DNA from: Rhodococcus sp. WMMA185
Lineage (GTDB): Bacteria; Actinomycetota; Actinomycetes; Mycobacteriales; Mycobacteriaceae
DNA: 64,000 nt
Reading direction: 5' to 3'
Assembly: GCF_001767395.1 (NCBI RefSeq)
Contig: NZ_CP017014.1
Span: 3,985,012 to 4,049,011, forward strand
In this document: in pieces, positions 30,370 through 36,822 of the stretch
How positions within the stretch are numbered: the stretch's first letter is position 1
Layout: every line of letters starts with the position of its first letter
The notes under the pieces: model-generated
Told to the model about the DNA's origin: nothing
The model's input: only the letters and a program-made list of their open reading frames with translations
Database searches by the model: none
Program-made: the position numbers and the translations under genes

Positions 30370-30404
30370 GATCTATACGGAAAGTGTTCTCGGGGAATTT
30401 ATTT

Positions 30405-30660
30405 GGGTGACAAACATATCAGTTGGACAGTTGTAGCCGTCGCATTTGCGAGATGGTTAATTGTTGTGCGGAAACCACTTTCGGCCAGGACTCCGTATAT
30501 CGACGGTTGGGTTGGGGTGCGGGTTGGCCTGGATAGGGAATCGGAATGGTTGGGCCGAGGATCGAGTTCGAGCATCGGGAGTAGTGACCCCCGAACCGGA
30601 AGATCCGGAGAAACAGAATGATTCGGACAAACCGAAGGAACCGGACCTGCAAGGAATAGT
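30405..30660 (-). pseudogene. Remnant 1 of a DUF4185 gene (internally deleted)
   Basis: Read on the minus strand, this spacer matches two separated parts of the intact DUF4185 gene at 35248-36822: its last ~25 codons (30415-30480) and its proline-rich linker (about 30510-30655; in one frame it still reads TIPIPYPGQPAPQPN against TIPIPYPGGPGPEPQP). Roughly 950 bp of catalytic domain between them are missing, and frames are broken. It is the most diverged of three such remnants. Confidence 0.7.
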
Positions 30661-30827
30661 AAGTGAACCCGCCCTAGCGCCGAGGGGGACTTGCGGCTAC
30701 TCTTCACGGCATTCCCCGTCGGGGTGTCTCGGCTGTGGCCCGAGATGCAAGTCGTGCAAAAAGAATTCGACGGGGACCATACAAGACTGGGGACAGCCAC
30801 GTTGTTCCGTCGAGAGAGGATGCGTAC
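30661..30827 (+). promoter_or_regulatory. Conserved 167-nt leader of YVTN gene 1
   Basis: This segment is exactly 167 nt in all three copies, with no indels. By eye, copies 1 and 2 differ at about 16 positions and copies 2 and 3 at about 12. It starts AAGTGAACCC, contains ATTCCCCGTCGGGG, TCGTGCAAAAAG and GACTGGGGACAGCC, and ends with GAGAGAGGA plus 7 nt before the GTG start. In copy 1, TCCCCGTCG can pair with CGACGGGGA downstream. It probably contains the promoter and 5' UTR; the class is not recognised. Confidence 0.6.
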
Positions 30828-31958
30828 GTGAATCGAGACGGTAGTTTGCTCGGCAAGCCCGCGATCCGGGGGAGCTTCCCGCGTTTGTTGTTCGGGTTGT
30901 CGACTACTGCTGCGATGATGCTCGGAATGGCCGGAGCGGGGGCGGCGACTGCGGTGGCGGATACCGCTTCTTCTGATAACACGGTGATCGACACCATCTC
31001 GGTCGGGGCCAACCCCCAGCATGTGGTAATCACCCCGGATGGATCCCGCGCCTACGTCAACAACTATCTTGACAGCTCGGTGTCGGTGATCGACGCCGTC
31101 AGCGACACGGTGATCGACACCGTCAGCGTAGAAAGCAGGCCGTTGTGGCTAGCGGTCTCCCCGGACGGGTCCCAGGTCTACGTCACTACTGGCAGGTCGG
31201 TGTCGGTGATCGACACCGACAGCGACACGGTGATCGACACCATCCCCGTCCAAAACCCTACCCAAGGAGTGGCGTTCACCCCGGACGGGTCCTACGCCTA
31301 CGTCCCTCAGATCAATGACGATTCGGTGGCGGTGATCGACACCCCCAGCCACGTGAATTTCGCTAGCGTCCCGATCGGGGTGTCCTCGAAGAGGGTGGTG
31401 GTCACCCCGGACGGGTCCCGTGCCTACGTCACCGCTAGCGGAGACTCGGTGTTTGTGATCGACACTGCCAGCAACACAGTAATCGACACCATCACCGTCG
31501 GGGCCAAATCCCAAGGCATCGCGGTCACCCCGGATGGTTCTCGAATCTACGTCGCCCACATTGATGACGATTCGGTGTCGGTGATCGATACCGCCAGCAA
31601 CGCGGTGATCGACACCGTCTCCGTTGGGGCGAGACCGTTGTGGGTGGCGGTCGCCCCGGACGGGTTGCGCGCCTATGTCAGCAACTCTCACGACGATTCG
31701 GTGTCGGTGATCGATACCGCCAGCAACGCGGTGATCGACACTGTCACCGTCGGACGAACCCCGGACGGAATAGCGGTCTCCCCGGATGGGTCCCGCGCCT
31801 ACGTGGTGAACATCCTTGACCACTCGGTGTCCGTGATCGAACTGGCCGTTGGAGAGCCGGGTGGTGGAGAGCCGGGTGGTGGAGAGCCGGGTGGTGGAGA
31901 GCCGGGCGATGGTGAGCCGGGCGATGGGTGTACCGGATCGCTCTGCTTCGGGTCGTAG
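30828..31958 (+). CDS. Secreted seven-bladed YVTN beta-propeller protein, copy 1
   Basis: The 376-residue protein has a signal peptide (about 1-44, ending GAATAVA), then seven ~42-residue repeats of the type TVIDTISVG...VAVSPDGSRAYV...SVSVID, so one complete propeller. A Gly-Glu-Pro-Gly tail built from a 12-bp repeat follows, with a conserved Cys-containing end GDGCTGSLCFGS. GTG 30828 is chosen: GAGAGAGGA is 7 nt upstream and the signal peptide starts there. The open frame continues back to 30735, but that part is the conserved leader. Probably exported to the cell surface; ligand unknown. Confidence 0.85.
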   Translation: MNRDGSLLGKPAIRGSFPRLLFGLSTTAAMMLGMAGAGAATAVADTASSDNTVIDTISVGANPQHVVITPDGSRAYVNNYLDSSVSVIDAVSDTVIDTVSVESRPLWLAVSPDGSQVYVTTGRSVSVIDTDSDTVIDTIPVQNPTQGVAFTPDGSYAYVPQINDDSVAVIDTPSHVNFASVPIGVSSKRVVVTPDGSRAYVTASGDSVFVIDTASNTVIDTITVGAKSQGIAVTPDGSRIYVAHIDDDSVSVIDTASNAVIDTVSVGARPLWVAVAPDGLRAYVSNSHDDSVSVIDTASNAVIDTVTVGRTPDGIAVSPDGSRAYVVNILDHSVSVIELAVGEPGGGEPGGGEPGGGEPGDGEPGDGCTGSLCFGS

Positions 31959-31985
31959 CGGGTGCGTTGAAACATGTGTGTGGGT

Positions 31986-32239
31986 AGGTCAGTTCAGCAA
32001 TGTGCGCATCAGTGGACGTTGTTGCCGTCCCGCTAATGAGATGGTGAATTGTTGTGAGGTAATCACTTTCGGTTCAGACTTCTCGTGGCCAACGGTTCGG
32101 ATCGGGCATGTGGCTGCCTGTTTAGGGAATCGGAACGAGGATCGGGTTCGATTCCCGCGAGTAGCGAACCCCGAACCGGAAAAGCTGGATAAACAGGAGA
32201 ATTCGGACGAATCGAAGGAACTGGACTTGCGAGGAAAAC
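31986..32239 (-). pseudogene. Remnant 2 of a DUF4185 gene (internally deleted)
   Basis: It matches the 3' end and the linker of the intact DUF4185 gene with the same internal deletion as remnants 1 and 3. The part at 31986-32050 (AGGTCAGTTCAGCAATGTGC...) matches the terminal codons; 32130-32225 matches the proline/glutamate-rich linker. No usable open frame remains. Confidence 0.75.
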
Positions 32240-32406
32240 AAGTGAACCCGGTCTAGCGCTGACGGGGACTTGGGGCTACTCTTCACGGCATTCCCCGCCG
32301 GGGTGTCTTGGCTGAGGCCCGAGATGCCCATCGTGCAAAAAGAATTCGACGGGGACTACACACGACTGGGGACAGCCTCGTTGTTCCGTTGAGAGAGGAT
32401 GCGTAC
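32240..32406 (+). promoter_or_regulatory. Conserved 167-nt leader of YVTN gene 2
   Basis: Second copy of the leader at 30661-30827, the same length. It lies directly between a DUF4185 remnant and the GTG start of the second propeller gene. The base pairing proposed in copy 1 has one mismatch here, so that structure is not supported by covariation. Confidence 0.6.
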
Positions 32407-33528
32407 GTGGATCGAGACGGTAGTTTGCTCGACAATCCCCCGGTCCGGGGAAGCTTCCCGCGTTTGTTGTTCGGGTTGACAACTACTGCGGCGATGATGC
32501 TCGGTATGGCCGGAGCGGGGGCGGCGACTGCGGTGGCGAATCCCGCTTCTTCCGGCAACACGGTGATCGACACCATCAAGGTCGGGACCAACCCTGGGGA
32601 GGTGGCGGTCTCCCCGGACGGGTCCCGCGCTTACGTCACCAACTATTACGACAAGTCGGTGTCGGTGATCGACGCCGACAGCAATACGGTGATCGACACC
32701 GTTCGCGTCGGAGACAGGCCGTCGTCGGTGGCGATCTCCCCGGACGCGTCCCGCGCCTACGTCACCAACTACTACGGCAATTCGGTGTCGGTGATCGACG
32801 CCGGCAGCGACACGGTGATCGGCACCGTCACCGTCGGGAACGGGCCGAGGTCGGTGGCGGTCTCCCCAGACGGGTCCCGCGCCTACGTCGCCAATACTCT
32901 CGGCGGGTCGGTGTCGGTGATCGACGCTGACAGCGACACGGTGATCGACACGGTCTCTGTCGCCGGCAGTCCCCTAGGTATGGCTTTCTCCCCGAACGGG
33001 TCCCGCGTCTACGTTGCCAATAATGATGACAAGACGGTGGCGGTGATCGACACCGCCAGCGACACGGTGATCGAAACCATACCGACCGGGTCGGCGCCGA
33101 AGAGGGTTGCAGTCACTCCGGACGGGTCCCGCGTCTACGTCACCGCCACCAGCAATTCGGTGGTGGTGATCGACACCGCCAGCGACACGGTGATCGACAA
33201 CGTCTCAGTCCAAGGCTTGCCTGAAGGTGTGGCGGTCTCCCCGGACGGGTCCCACGTCTACGCCACCACTCTCTTCAACGATTCGGTGTCGGTGATCGAC
33301 ACCGCCAGCGACACGGTGATCGACACCTTTCGCGTCGGAAAATTCCCGGAAGGTGTGGCAGTTGCTCCGTTCATCGCCCGCGCCTACGTCGTGAACAGTC
33401 ACGACGATTCAGTGTCCGTGATCGACTTGTCTGGTGAAACGCCTGGAGGTGGCGAGCCTGGCGGTGGTGAGCCGGGCGGTGGTGAGCCGGGCGATGGGTG
33501 TACCGGATCGCTCTGCTTCGGGTCGTAG
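32407..33528 (+). CDS. Secreted seven-bladed YVTN beta-propeller protein, copy 2
   Basis: The 373-residue paralogue has a near-identical signal peptide (GSFPRLLFGLTTTAAMMLGM), seven YVTN blades, a shorter GEPGG tail and the same GDGCTGSLCFGS end. Blade loops differ clearly from copy 1, while signal peptide and leader hardly differ. GTG 32407 follows GAGAGAGGA. A perfect hairpin terminator follows the gene. Confidence 0.85.
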   Translation: MDRDGSLLDNPPVRGSFPRLLFGLTTTAAMMLGMAGAGAATAVANPASSGNTVIDTIKVGTNPGEVAVSPDGSRAYVTNYYDKSVSVIDADSNTVIDTVRVGDRPSSVAISPDASRAYVTNYYGNSVSVIDAGSDTVIGTVTVGNGPRSVAVSPDGSRAYVANTLGGSVSVIDADSDTVIDTVSVAGSPLGMAFSPNGSRVYVANNDDKTVAVIDTASDTVIETIPTGSAPKRVAVTPDGSRVYVTATSNSVVVIDTASDTVIDNVSVQGLPEGVAVSPDGSHVYATTLFNDSVSVIDTASDTVIDTFRVGKFPEGVAVAPFIARAYVVNSHDDSVSVIDLSGETPGGGEPGGGEPGGGEPGDGCTGSLCFGS

Positions 33529-33540
33529 CGGGTTGTGAAG

Positions 33541-33587
33541 CCGAGTGGCGCCGCCACCCTGACCGTCAGGGTGGCGGCGCCACTCGG
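33541..33587. terminator. Perfect 22-bp inverted repeat, terminator after YVTN gene 2
   Basis: Arms 33541-33562 and 33566-33587 are perfectly complementary around a 3-nt loop (CCG). It lies between two convergent units (propeller gene and DUF4185 remnant), so it is probably a bidirectional terminator. The equivalent hairpin is missing after copy 1 and imperfect after copy 3. Confidence 0.8.
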
Positions 33588-33610
33588 TGCGTTGAAACAT
33601 GAGCGTGGGT

Positions 33611-33864
33611 AGGTCAGTTCAGCAATGCGCGCATCAGTGGACGTTGTTGCAGTCCCGCTAGTGGGATGGTGAATTGTTGTGAGGGAATCACTTTCGACCC
33701 AGACTTCTCGCGCCGGCGGTTCGGATCGGGCATGTGGCTGCCTATATGGGGAATCGGAACGAGGATCGAGTTCGATCTCCGCGAGTAGCGAACCTAGAAC
33801 CGGAAAATCCGGAGAAACAGGATAATTCAGACAAACCGAAGGAACCGGACTTCCGGGGAAAAAC
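33611..33864 (-). pseudogene. Remnant 3 of a DUF4185 gene (internally deleted)
   Basis: It has the same length (254 bp) and the same deletion junction region as remnant 2. AGGTCAGTT..GCATCAG..GACGTTGT at 33611-33647 matches the 3' end of the intact gene at 35245-35282. GGGGAATCGGAACGAGG at about 33749 aligns with the GTATGGGATAGG linker DNA at about 36316. Confidence 0.78.
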
Positions 33865-34031
33865 AAGTGAACCCGGTCTAGCGCTGAGGGAGACTTGGGG
33901 CTACTCTTCACGGCATTCCCCGTCGGGGCGTCTTGGCTGAGGCCCGAGAAACCCATCGTGCAAAAAGGATTCGACGGAGACCACACAAGACTGGGGACAG
34001 CCTCGTTGTTCCATTGAGAGAGGATGCGCAC
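33865..34031 (+). promoter_or_regulatory. Conserved 167-nt leader of YVTN gene 3
   Basis: Third copy of the leader, again exactly 167 nt, ending with GAGAGAGGA and a GTG start. Confidence 0.6.
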
Positions 34032-35162
34032 GTGAATCGAGACGGTAGTTTGCTCGGCAAGCGCCCGGTCCGGGGGAGCTTCCCGCGTCTCTTGTTCGGG
34101 CTGACAACTACTGCTGCGATGATGCTCGGTATGGCAGGAGCCGGGGCGGCGACTGCGGCGGCGGATACCGATCCTTCCGGCGACACAGCAATCGACACCG
34201 TCTCCGACGGCAACACGGTGATCGACACCGTCTCCGTCGAAAACAGGCCTCGCCATGTGGCGCTCACTCCAGACGGGGCCTACGCCTACGTCGCCAACAC
34301 CTCTAGCAAGTCGGTGTCGGTGATCGACACCGCCGGCAACACAGTGATCGACACCCTCTCCGTCGAAGCGACCCCCCTAGGTGTGGCGGTCAGCCCGGAC
34401 GGGGCGCACGTCTTCGTCGCCAACGCCAATAGCCGTTCGCTGTCGGTGATCGACGCCCCCACCAACATTGTGGTCCAAAACGTCCTCGTCCCAGGCGGAG
34501 GCAACCCTCAGAATGTGGCGGTCACCCCAGACGGGTCCCGCGTCTACATCACCAAGGTCAATGACAACTCGGTGCAGGTGTTCGACACCACCAGGAACAC
34601 GATGATCGACCCCATCCCGATCGGGGTGTTCTCGAGGAGGGTGGCGTTCAGCCCGGACGGATCCCGTACCTACGTCACCGCTAGCGGAGAGTCGATGTTC
34701 GTGATCGACACCGCCAGCAACACGGTGATCGACACCATCGGCGTCGGGGGCGAATCCCGAGGCATCGCAGTCACCCCGGATGGTTCTCGAATCTATGTCG
34801 CCACATACGATCAGAACTCGGTGGCGGTGATCGACGCCGCTAGCAACACGGTGATCGACACCATTTCGGTCCCACACCCCCGCGGTGCGGCGGTCTCCCC
34901 GGACGGATCCCTCGTCTACATCACCAACATGGATGACGACTCGGTGTCGGTGATTGCAACCGCCAGCGACACTGTGATCGACACTGTTCCCGTCGGAGAA
35001 TCCCCGGACGGTATAGCGGTCTCCCCGGACGGGTCCCGCGCCTACGTGGCGAGCGTCGACGACAATTCTGTGTCCGTGATCGAATTGTCTGGTGAAACGC
35101 CTGGCGGTGGAGAGCCGGGCGGTGGATGTACCGGATCGATGTGCTTCGCCTCTGGGTCGTAA
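34032..35162 (+). CDS. Secreted seven-bladed YVTN beta-propeller protein, copy 3
   Basis: The 376-residue paralogue has the same signal peptide, seven blades and the shortest GEPGG tail, ending GCTGSMCFASGS. Between signal peptide and blade 1 it has a short extra repeat (TAIDTVSDGNTVIDTVSVE), suggesting local slippage. Start GTG 34032 by analogy with the other copies. It converges on the intact DUF4185 gene. Confidence 0.85.
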   Translation: MNRDGSLLGKRPVRGSFPRLLFGLTTTAAMMLGMAGAGAATAAADTDPSGDTAIDTVSDGNTVIDTVSVENRPRHVALTPDGAYAYVANTSSKSVSVIDTAGNTVIDTLSVEATPLGVAVSPDGAHVFVANANSRSLSVIDAPTNIVVQNVLVPGGGNPQNVAVTPDGSRVYITKVNDNSVQVFDTTRNTMIDPIPIGVFSRRVAFSPDGSRTYVTASGESMFVIDTASNTVIDTIGVGGESRGIAVTPDGSRIYVATYDQNSVAVIDAASNTVIDTISVPHPRGAAVSPDGSLVYITNMDDDSVSVIATASDTVIDTVPVGESPDGIAVSPDGSRAYVASVDDNSVSVIELSGETPGGGEPGGGCTGSMCFASGS

Positions 35163-35247: not shown

Positions 35248-36822
35248 TCAGTTGAAGGATGCGTGCATCAGATAGACGTTGTAGCTGTCCCACTCCGACA
35301 TGGTGAAGTAGAGGTCTTTGTCCGTTGACCAGGGATGCATGAATCCGCCGTACGCCTTCGGATAGTCGGCCGTTTTCACGAGTTCTGCGGTGTCCGACCA
35401 CACCCCTTGGGGGCTCGACGACTGTCGCAGGATGATCGATCCCCCGATCGGATCGAGGTAGCTCATTTGCCACTTCTCGGTATCAGCGTCGTAGCGGACC
35501 GATAGTTCACTGGAGATACCCTCGACGATCGGCCTCGCAAAGTTGTTCTTCACCGGAGTCCATTCACCGTCGGACCAATACTGGTACGACGTGACGTTGA
35601 GAACCTGATCGACCGGCACCCGGGCGAGGCCGATGGTGCCGATTCGGCCGCTAGGGGTTCCGAACATGTATACGTAGTCGCCCTGGGGCACCATCGCCGA
35701 CACCTGGAATCGTGCACCGAAGATGTTCTCCCACTTGGCGTGCTGGTCTTTGGTCCAGGTCTGCCCATCATCGTCGGAGTACGCGATGCCGCCGTAATTC
35801 GTGTACCACATACCTGGAATCAGGCTCCAGCGCTTCACCGACATGTAGCTGAGGTACTGGCGGTCACCGATCGCGAAACCCGAGGTCGGGATGGTGGTGG
35901 TCTCGAAGTTGTTGATGTGCCTGGCATCGATGATCTCGGCGGCGTGGCAGCGGCTGTCTTGGACCATGCTGTCGATGGTCATGCCGTTGGACAGATCGGT
36001 GTCGGTGCTGTGGCCGAGGACGTTGCTCCGCCAGTCCCCACCACGCCCGCCAGGCGGGTCCCAGTCTTTGCCGAAGGTGTCGCCGAACGCGATCGCCACC
36101 TCACCGGGCTTGCTTTCCCACATGATGCCGAGGTCGGTGCCGTTCACTTGCCAGCGCTTGTCAGTGCGGTTTTCGGAGCCGTGGCCGGTCAGCTGCGAAA
36201 CCAATCGGACCTCTTCGACATCCGGCTTAGCCAGCGCTGGTGTGAGGGAACCAGGTTCGGCCGGGTTGATTTCGACCGGCGGTTTGGGCTGCGGTTCGGG
36301 GCCGGGGCCGCCGGGGTATGGGATAGGTATGGTCTCCGGCCGCGGTTCCAATTGGATCTTCGGTAGCAGCGAACCTGAACCGCCAGAGCTGGACGAACCA
36401 GCGGAGTCCGACGACCCCGAGGAGCCGAGCGAACCAGACCCGGCAGAGCCGGACGAACCAGATTCACCAGACTCGGGTTGTGGTTCTTCGTCGTCGGTGA
36501 GGTCGGGGCACGGGTCCGCGCAGGGATCGGCGGGAAGATCTTGCGCAACCCGGGTCGGCGGCGCGGGAGCAGGGCCGGGGACCGGCACCAGCTGGAAGTC
36601 GGGATACGGGATCGGGATGCTGATGGTCGGCGGAATCAGTGGTCCGCTCGGGCCCGGTGGTTCCTTCGCGGGGTTGAATCCGGTCTCACCGCACGAGTTC
36701 ACGGGAAGCCGCCAGGGCGTGGTCTCTGCTGCGGCCGGACTGGTCGAGAAGCCAATGGCAGCAACCATGACGGCAGCGATGGACAGCGGTACCGCGGGCA
36801 TAGACCTCGACTTCTCGACCAC
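35248..36822 (-). CDS. Secreted DUF4185 protein, probable endo-D-arabinanase (GH183-type)
   Basis: The 524-residue protein has a signal peptide (about 1-33, ending SPAAA), a long Pro/Ser/Gly-rich linker with TIPIPYPGG motifs (about 35-205) and a C-terminal five-bladed-propeller-like DUF4185 domain (about 205-524; IAFGDTFG, RWSLIPGMWYTNYGGIAYSDD, IVEGISSELSVRYD). DUF4185 proteins have been described as GH183 endo-D-arabinanases acting on mycobacterial arabinan, so a role in arabinogalactan remodelling is likely but not shown here. GTG 36822 has GGAAGG 6 nt upstream. A longer frame to 37101 has no signal peptide at its start and is rejected. Confidence 0.82.
   Translation of the reverse strand: MVEKSRSMPAVPLSIAAVMVAAIGFSTSPAAAETTPWRLPVNSCGETGFNPAKEPPGPSGPLIPPTISIPIPYPDFQLVPVPGPAPAPPTRVAQDLPADPCADPCPDLTDDEEPQPESGESGSSGSAGSGSLGSSGSSDSAGSSSSGGSGSLLPKIQLEPRPETIPIPYPGGPGPEPQPKPPVEINPAEPGSLTPALAKPDVEEVRLVSQLTGHGSENRTDKRWQVNGTDLGIMWESKPGEVAIAFGDTFGKDWDPPGGRGGDWRSNVLGHSTDTDLSNGMTIDSMVQDSRCHAAEIIDARHINNFETTTIPTSGFAIGDRQYLSYMSVKRWSLIPGMWYTNYGGIAYSDDDGQTWTKDQHAKWENIFGARFQVSAMVPQGDYVYMFGTPSGRIGTIGLARVPVDQVLNVTSYQYWSDGEWTPVKNNFARPIVEGISSELSVRYDADTEKWQMSYLDPIGGSIILRQSSSPQGVWSDTAELVKTADYPKAYGGFMHPWSTDKDLYFTMSEWDSYNVYLMHASFN

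Follow-up and report, generated by a model that had tools for sequence, protein, structure and literature searches.

Three genes for YVTN/YNCE-like beta-propellers (c1, c2 and c3) lie in tandem within a 64,000-nt stretch of the genome of Rhodococcus sp. WMMA185 (contig NZ_CP017014.1, positions 3,985,012 to 4,049,011; hereafter the window), and each of them is preceded at its 5' end by a 167-nt leader, designated class 1. It was concluded that the leader and the signal-peptide segment form a 5' cassette that passes between the tandem propeller copies through non-allelic homologous recombination; we put the probability of this reading at about three in four. In Rhodococcus marinonascens the leader and the signal peptide grouped by genome, the blades grouped by ortholog, and the exchanged tract was bounded. 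The same process probably accounts for the likeness of the copies in the window. Recombination between paralogs, and not an exceptional RNA element, was the most likely main cause of the strong resemblance of the leaders.

The cassette would span approximately 300-450 bp and would include a promoter, a 5' untranslated region (UTR), a ribosome-binding site (RBS) and the signal peptide. It would be transferred either by gene conversion or by unequal crossing-over whose breakpoint falls within the blades. As an outcome, the front ends would be homogenised within a genome, and the blades would keep older, divergent histories.

Class-1 leaders and propeller genes of the window

The genes c1 (30828..31958, 376 aa), c2 (32407..33528, 373 aa) and c3 (34032..35162, 376 aa) are located on the forward strand, as are their leaders at 30661..30827, 32240..32406 and 33865..34031, respectively. 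All three proteins scored above the gathering threshold for Pfam PF21783 and PF10282, and their N-termini, as read from the sequence, resembled signal peptides; each propeller is predicted to be secreted. Only these three copies of the class-1 leader were found in the genome (G000, a single contig of 4.44 Mb).

The leaders aligned over 167 positions without a gap, which confirmed the coordinates, the length and the lack of indels given in a first-pass annotation of this DNA. The 12-16 pairwise differences (90-93% identity) counted there held for c1-c2 (16, 90.4%) and c2-c3 (12, 92.8%) but were too low for c1-c3 (20, 88.0%). The signal-peptide DNA (+1..+141; 30828..30968 in c1, 32407-32547 in c2 and 34032-34172 in c3), assigned to the shared cassette by alignment and by the tract and tree tests, was 89.4-91.5% identical among the three copies, compared with 70.4-75.6% for the remaining gene. 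Hence, the blades were indeed more divergent than the leaders (70-76% versus 88.0-92.8%). The further claim that only the leader and the signal peptide are conserved applied to c1, which shared 66.7-67.1% with the other copies upstream of the leader (-470..-168), but not to c2 and c3, which were 84.1% identical over the same interval. Their likeness ran on through the intergenic DNA, where 31961-32085 and 33586-33710 were 92% identical. The original observation was thus confirmed in part.

Comparison with Rhodococcus marinonascens

One genome per species was compared. The full class-1 leader was detected in a single other genome, that of R. marinonascens NBRC 14363 (NZ_BCXB01000055.1 and NZ_BCXB01000021.1), i.e., in 2 of the 28 genomes of the genus and 2 of the 401 genomes of the family. 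A third genome of the genus, G001, contained only a 44-nt piece, and the five further matches in the family were pieces of 22-54 nt, when at most two candidates per genome were scored. R. marinonascens has a syntenic array of three propellers (mA1, mB1 and mB2) between modABC and a DUF4185 gene, in the same order, and one of these propellers was apparently split by a contig break.

The blades of c2 were orthologous to those of mA1 (92.4% identity) and the blades of c3 to those of mB2 (95.1%), and the other pairs shared 70-82%. The R. marinonascens leaders were 97.6-98.8% identical to each other. Between the species the leaders shared 87.3-90.4%, with values of 87.3% and 90.4% for the ortholog pairs c2-mA1 and c3-mB2. 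Five columns of the leader alignment separated the two genomes, and no column backed either ortholog pair alone. The signal-peptide DNA was identical at 141 of 141 sites in all three R. marinonascens copies, and the synonymous divergence (dS) of the mB1-mB2 blades was 0.41; the identity of this segment was 93-95% between the species and 89-92% among the copies of the window. In the leader and the signal peptide, the R. marinonascens paralogs were therefore closer to each other than to their orthologs, which was not clearly so for the copies of the window.

Between orthologs the blades were better conserved than the leader (p = 0.046 and 0.026). The ratio of corrected leader divergence to blade dS was 1.03 for c2-mA1 and 0.89 for c3-mB2, and it ranged from 0.06 to 0.33 for four paralog pairs. 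The leader was not considered unusually constrained, since between species it was less conserved than the blades and diverged at approximately the synonymous rate. Accordingly, a leader more conserved than the gene, as had been claimed, was seen among paralogs but not between orthologs, where the blades were the more conserved part.

Recombination tests

A GENECONV-style scan and approximately unbiased (AU) tests were performed with the five complete copies, mA1 being left out since it was cut. The scan covered 493 polymorphic columns and 20 fragment tests, uncorrected. A fragment at -263..+177 was recorded for mB1-mB2 and another at +181..+907 for c3-mB2, both in 0 of 10,000 permutations. The c3-mB2 pattern was present at 66 sites, starting from +204, and the genome pattern at 11 sites, nine of which lay no further downstream than +23 and the other two close to the 3' end.

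Four trees, two ortholog and two genome ones, were offered to the AU test. For the leader with the signal peptide both ortholog trees were rejected (p = 0.009 and 0.0002), and both genome trees were kept. For the blades both genome trees were rejected (p = 7e-11 and 6e-7), and only the ortholog tree joining c2 with mB1 was kept. Local gene conversion, which the first-pass annotation had proposed as one of two explanations, was therefore upheld in R. marinonascens, as the leader and the signal peptide grouped by genome, the blades by ortholog, and a significant tract extended over both. That proposal had combined tracts covering the leader and the signal peptide, which were found, with absence of the element from the orthologous locus, where it was in fact present.

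The share of synonymous differences was lower in the signal peptide than in the blades for mB1-mB2 (0/38 versus 77/246, p = 2.7e-6), c1-c2 (4/38 versus 91/253, p = 0.0014) and c2-c3 (6/36 versus 85/248, p = 0.036). It was this comparison that supported exchange in the genome of the window itself. The homogenisation was recent in R. marinonascens, and older and less certain in the window.

A significant c1-c3 tract was also observed within the blades at +586..+761 (31413-31588 versus 34617-34792; 0 of 10,000 permutations), and the two genes were 81% identical over 31269-31568. The tract indicated that blades exchange too.

Class-2 leaders and the wider propeller family

The signal-peptide DNA matched other loci of both genomes, which revealed a second class of leaders (class 2). 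When one class-2 leader served as query, it matched 15 places in G000 and 25 in R. marinonascens; the remaining 26 genomes of the genus had no match. Filtering by a pattern of start codon, RBS and signal peptide kept 41 start regions (13 from G000 and 28 from R. marinonascens); mA1, identical to mB1 over the first 150 nt, was merged with it, and several G000 copies failed the filter, three of which were recovered later. An alignment of 36 leaders (35 of class 2 and L011, another leader) contained the conserved block TTGTTAGCCT at approximately -96 to -88, and GGTTGATCCG..TTGTTC..AGGAGA..AAT directly before GTGAATC. By eye, TTGTTCC and AGGA near the start codon were common to both classes.

The pattern GGTTGATCCGNNNTGTTC was found in 5 of the 401 family genomes, with 7 matches in G000, 19 in R. 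marinonascens, 6 in G127, 3 in G139 and 1 in G174, and the reversed control gave zero throughout. The single match in G174 occurred without a detected propeller and was taken as chance. When three mismatches were allowed, the pattern GGTTGATCCGNTTTGTTC gave 22 sites in G000 and one in the control. All 13 G000 sites with two or fewer mismatches preceded propeller starts, one of the frames ending after 166 codons, and the exact sites in G127 (6) and G139 (3), which belong to another genus, likewise preceded propellers. This occurrence before propellers in two genera argues that class 2 is a genuine cis-element of the family.

The paralogs with class-2 leaders were compared using 36 genes with products of 250 aa or more (8 from G000, 14 from R. 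marinonascens, 7 from G127 and 7 from G139), and two further G127 propellers were left out. Four of the seven G139 copies matched the blades of a G127 copy at 84% identity or more, and for three of these four the best leader partner was a different one. For example, G139_3338 resembled G127_5331 in its blades (89.6%, leader 83.9%) and G127_2473 in its leader (95.8%, blades 74.1%). The copies G139_6088 and G139_7459 shared 94.7% in the signal peptide versus 74.4% in the blades. Such discordant partners indicated that front ends and blades recombine independently in the second genus as well. The leader was closer than the blades in 19 of 21 class-2 paralog pairs of G127 and 18 of 21 of G139.

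Several other features of the family were recorded. Tandem arrays were present in the other genus, with at least 10 propellers in G127 (L144/L145) and at least 7 in G139 (L146/L147), nearly all with class-2 leaders. Many class-2 propellers (e.g., L087, L095, L102 and L127-L133) ended in C-x-GSLC-x-DFGSLTGSGSG..S-stop, a tail resembling a signal for sorting or anchoring, and class-1 propellers ended in CTGSxCF..GS. In a class-2 alignment of 48 rows, which excluded L011, the leaderless G127_14695 and a G139 copy split between two stretches, every row by eye had the GTG start overlapping ATGTGA (A3 columns 102-107), where a start codon runs straight into a stop in a different frame; class 1 had no such overlap. 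The propeller reading frames L055, L058 and L059 of other named Rhodococcus carried neither leader class by eye, and a search for plasmid relatives of the leader with the signal peptide gave none.

Promoter, RNA structure and coding potential

Each leader probably holds its own promoter and an RBS. The likely RBS of c1, GAGAGAGG at 30812..30819, is spaced by 8 nt from the GTG codon, and the same sequence is located at 32391-32398 for c2 and 34016-34023 for c3. The hexamer TACTCT, at position -130 in five class-1 entries (30698..30703 for c1, 32277-32282 for c2 and 33902-33907 for c3), could be a -10 element; all of these motifs are on the forward strand. TACTCT and TAGCCT were treated as candidate -10 hexamers only, since a sigma-70 scan returned no promoter-like sites.

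No Rfam match at the gathering threshold was obtained in the window, and none up to E = 5 in 30370-30900, the c2 and c3 leaders being covered by the window-wide search; this agreed with the earlier remark that no known riboswitch class was recognised. Single-copy leaders folded no more stably than shuffled sequences (z of -0.42, +0.48 and +0.56), and the alignment folds gave z of -0.43 for the whole class 1 and +0.46 and +0.34 for class 2. None of the 59 class-1 consensus pairs covaried among six very similar rows, and 1 of 12 class-2 pairs did so, within the range of the shuffles. No leader-to-start duplex was better than shuffled ones at 0.05 in the 6 class-1 and 48 class-2 rows. A riboswitch or another RNA regulator was thus not supported by Rfam, folds, shuffles and pair counts, with two exceptions. 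A class-1 sub-region, chosen post hoc after the structure had been seen, had z of -2.88 against column shuffles. The other exception concerns class 2, where base pairing is possible between the near-invariant GGTTGATCC and GTGAATCACC and between a UCC and AGGA; 96.5% of cells paired, and the covariation was not beyond that of shuffles. A riboswitch is probably not involved, and the pairing of GGTTGATCC with the start region may be a means of translational control. The near-invariant class-2 GGTTGATCCG (A3 columns 64-73), which presumably resembles the complement of the 16S rRNA 3' end, was also complementary to the start region GTGAATCACC and is a possible occlusion or standby site.

The same data bear on purifying selection acting, with no exchange, on a dense cis-element such as a promoter, an operator or a structured or translational leader, which we considered unlikely as an explanation. 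A 24-column invariant run in the six class-1 leaders (chance 0.08), the conservation of the c2-mA1 leader above the preceding DNA, the near-invariant blocks of class 2 across two genera and the post-hoc sub-region speak for such selection. Yet between species the leader changed roughly as fast as synonymous sites and diverged further than the orthologous blades, protein constraint cannot explain why the signal peptides of R. marinonascens agree at 38 of 38 synonymous sites, and neither Rfam, fold stability nor covariation pointed to a structured RNA. The constrained cis-element or RNA regulator put forward in the first-pass annotation was accordingly not supported as the cause, and its overall interpretation was partly supported. 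To claim no cis-element at all would also be wrong, as the leader holds a probable promoter and RBS and the class-2 leader has conserved blocks throughout the family.

It was also considered whether the end of the leader is coding and extends the propeller at its N-terminus, as the frame is open for 31-33 codons upstream and mechanically called reading frames begin at 30735, 32308 and 33933. However, the variable columns numbered 5, 7 and 4 at the putative first, second and third codon positions, the last 90 nt were open in only 11 of 36 related leaders, and a good RBS is located 8 nt before GTG; this candidate was rejected, and its chance is negligible.

History of the array and evidence against exchange

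On its 5' side the array is flanked by nitrate reductase and modABC genes, as assigned from sequence, and on its 3' side it is closed by a DUF4185 gene on the opposite strand (35248..36801). A remnant of a DUF4185 gene was found on the reverse strand between modC and the c1 leader (30370..30660, tblastn E 6e-5), and weaker remnants on the same strand in the spaces before c2 and c3 (31959-32239 and 33529-33864; tblastn E 0.17 and 2.5, blastn E 7.5e-20 and 6.6e-8, respectively). These pieces corresponded to the 3' end and a proline-rich linker, the middle being lost, and therefore the array grew by duplicating units that included part of DUF4185.

Duplication of units is the basis of another explanation, in which the leaders are young copies without later exchange and the blades diverged fast after a recent duplication through shuffling or diversifying selection. 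The dN/dS values of 0.59-0.85 for paralogous blades and the c1-c3 exchange tract within the blades are compatible with it. We regarded it as improbable, however, because orthologous blades were collinear and 92-95% identical, i.e., their turnover is slower, and because the duplication predates the split of the arrays, yet the R. marinonascens leaders were nearly identical.

Several results weighed against exchange of the cassette among paralogs. The array had an unusual history: the blade dS between species was 0.115-0.135 for c2 and c3 (window 32400-35130 versus L034/L035), while the neighbouring genes, compared from stop to stop, had values of 0.42-0.55 (nitrate reductase, modA, modB and DUF4185) and 0.29 (modC). 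The best cross-species pairs of class-2 propellers gave 0.24-0.64, and the clearest ortholog pair, L129-L126, gave 0.45. The simplest reading would be that the array was exchanged between lineages after the species split. The array of R. marinonascens is interrupted by a contig break in a draft assembly, and some assembly collapse is possible. No significant leader tract was found in the genome of the window, the c2-c3 fragment at -171..-29 arising in ~2000 of 10,000 permutations. The c1-c3 pair showed no difference in synonymous sites between the signal peptide (6/36) and the blades (75/245, p = 0.11), and the leaders of the window (88-93% to each other) were roughly no closer to one another than to those of R. 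marinonascens (87-90%). Of the two ortholog trees for the blades, the AU test preferred the one with c2-mB1 and rejected the other (p = 2.7e-7). At four leader columns mB2 joined the copies of the window against mA1 and mB1, and homogenisation was therefore incomplete. Conservation was higher in the leader than in the intergenic DNA upstream of it (p = 0.0008 for c2-mA1 and 0.10 for c3-mB2), which leaves room for promoter or RBS constraint. Among the class-2 genes, G139_8900, one of the four G127/G139 blade pairs, agreed in leader, signal peptide and blades. The leader was closer than the blades in only 38 of 91 R. marinonascens and 14 of 28 G000 pairs, so the effect was not universal.

Discussion

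The nearest precedent is provided by the babA/babB and homA/homB genes of Helicobacter pylori, where one segment groups within the strain and the rest with orthologs, and intragenomic recombination has been invoked (PMC3960876, PMC2795765). The segmental concerted evolution of paralogs is the same. The segment homogenised in H. pylori is, however, the 3' one, in contrast to the leader and signal peptide here, and the part that varies here, a secreted beta-propeller, was not observed to switch. Pride and Blaser (2002), as cited there, reportedly dealt with concerted evolution of H. pylori outer-membrane paralogs. The PE/PPE proteins and the mycoplasma surface lipoproteins are also families with a conserved 5' end and a variable body, and they share with the propellers a conserved front and a diversified rest. 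Other YVTN/YNCE-like secreted beta-propellers (PF21783, PF10282) have the same signal peptide followed by YVTN-type blades, whereas the family described here, seen in four genomes from two genera, is a large paralog set whose members share leader classes and a conserved tail at the C-terminus. Among the open-access matches listed, judged by title and the start of the abstract, there was no paper on a propeller family with shared leaders.

The finding shows that a comparison of paralogs within one genome can mimic strong constraint on a leader, since the front end exceeded the gene in conservation there but not between species. In addition, it brings to light a large secreted-propeller family, spread over two genera and with leaders in common, which could be used to study paralog recombination in actinobacteria. 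More speculatively, and with a small likelihood in our estimate, the leaders could provide a diversification system with its shared 5' module, serving as a common regulatory handle and a homology anchor for dozens of secreted propellers. Such a module, a doubtful proposal in this detail too, would consist of a regulon-wide promoter and UTR, of class 1 here and class 2 (TTGTTAGCCT, GGTTGATCCG..TTGTTCC..AGGAG) elsewhere, plus the signal peptide, perhaps with an occluded start codon. If this were true, front ends and blades would be swapped, and the surface proteins of these actinobacteria would turn over rapidly.

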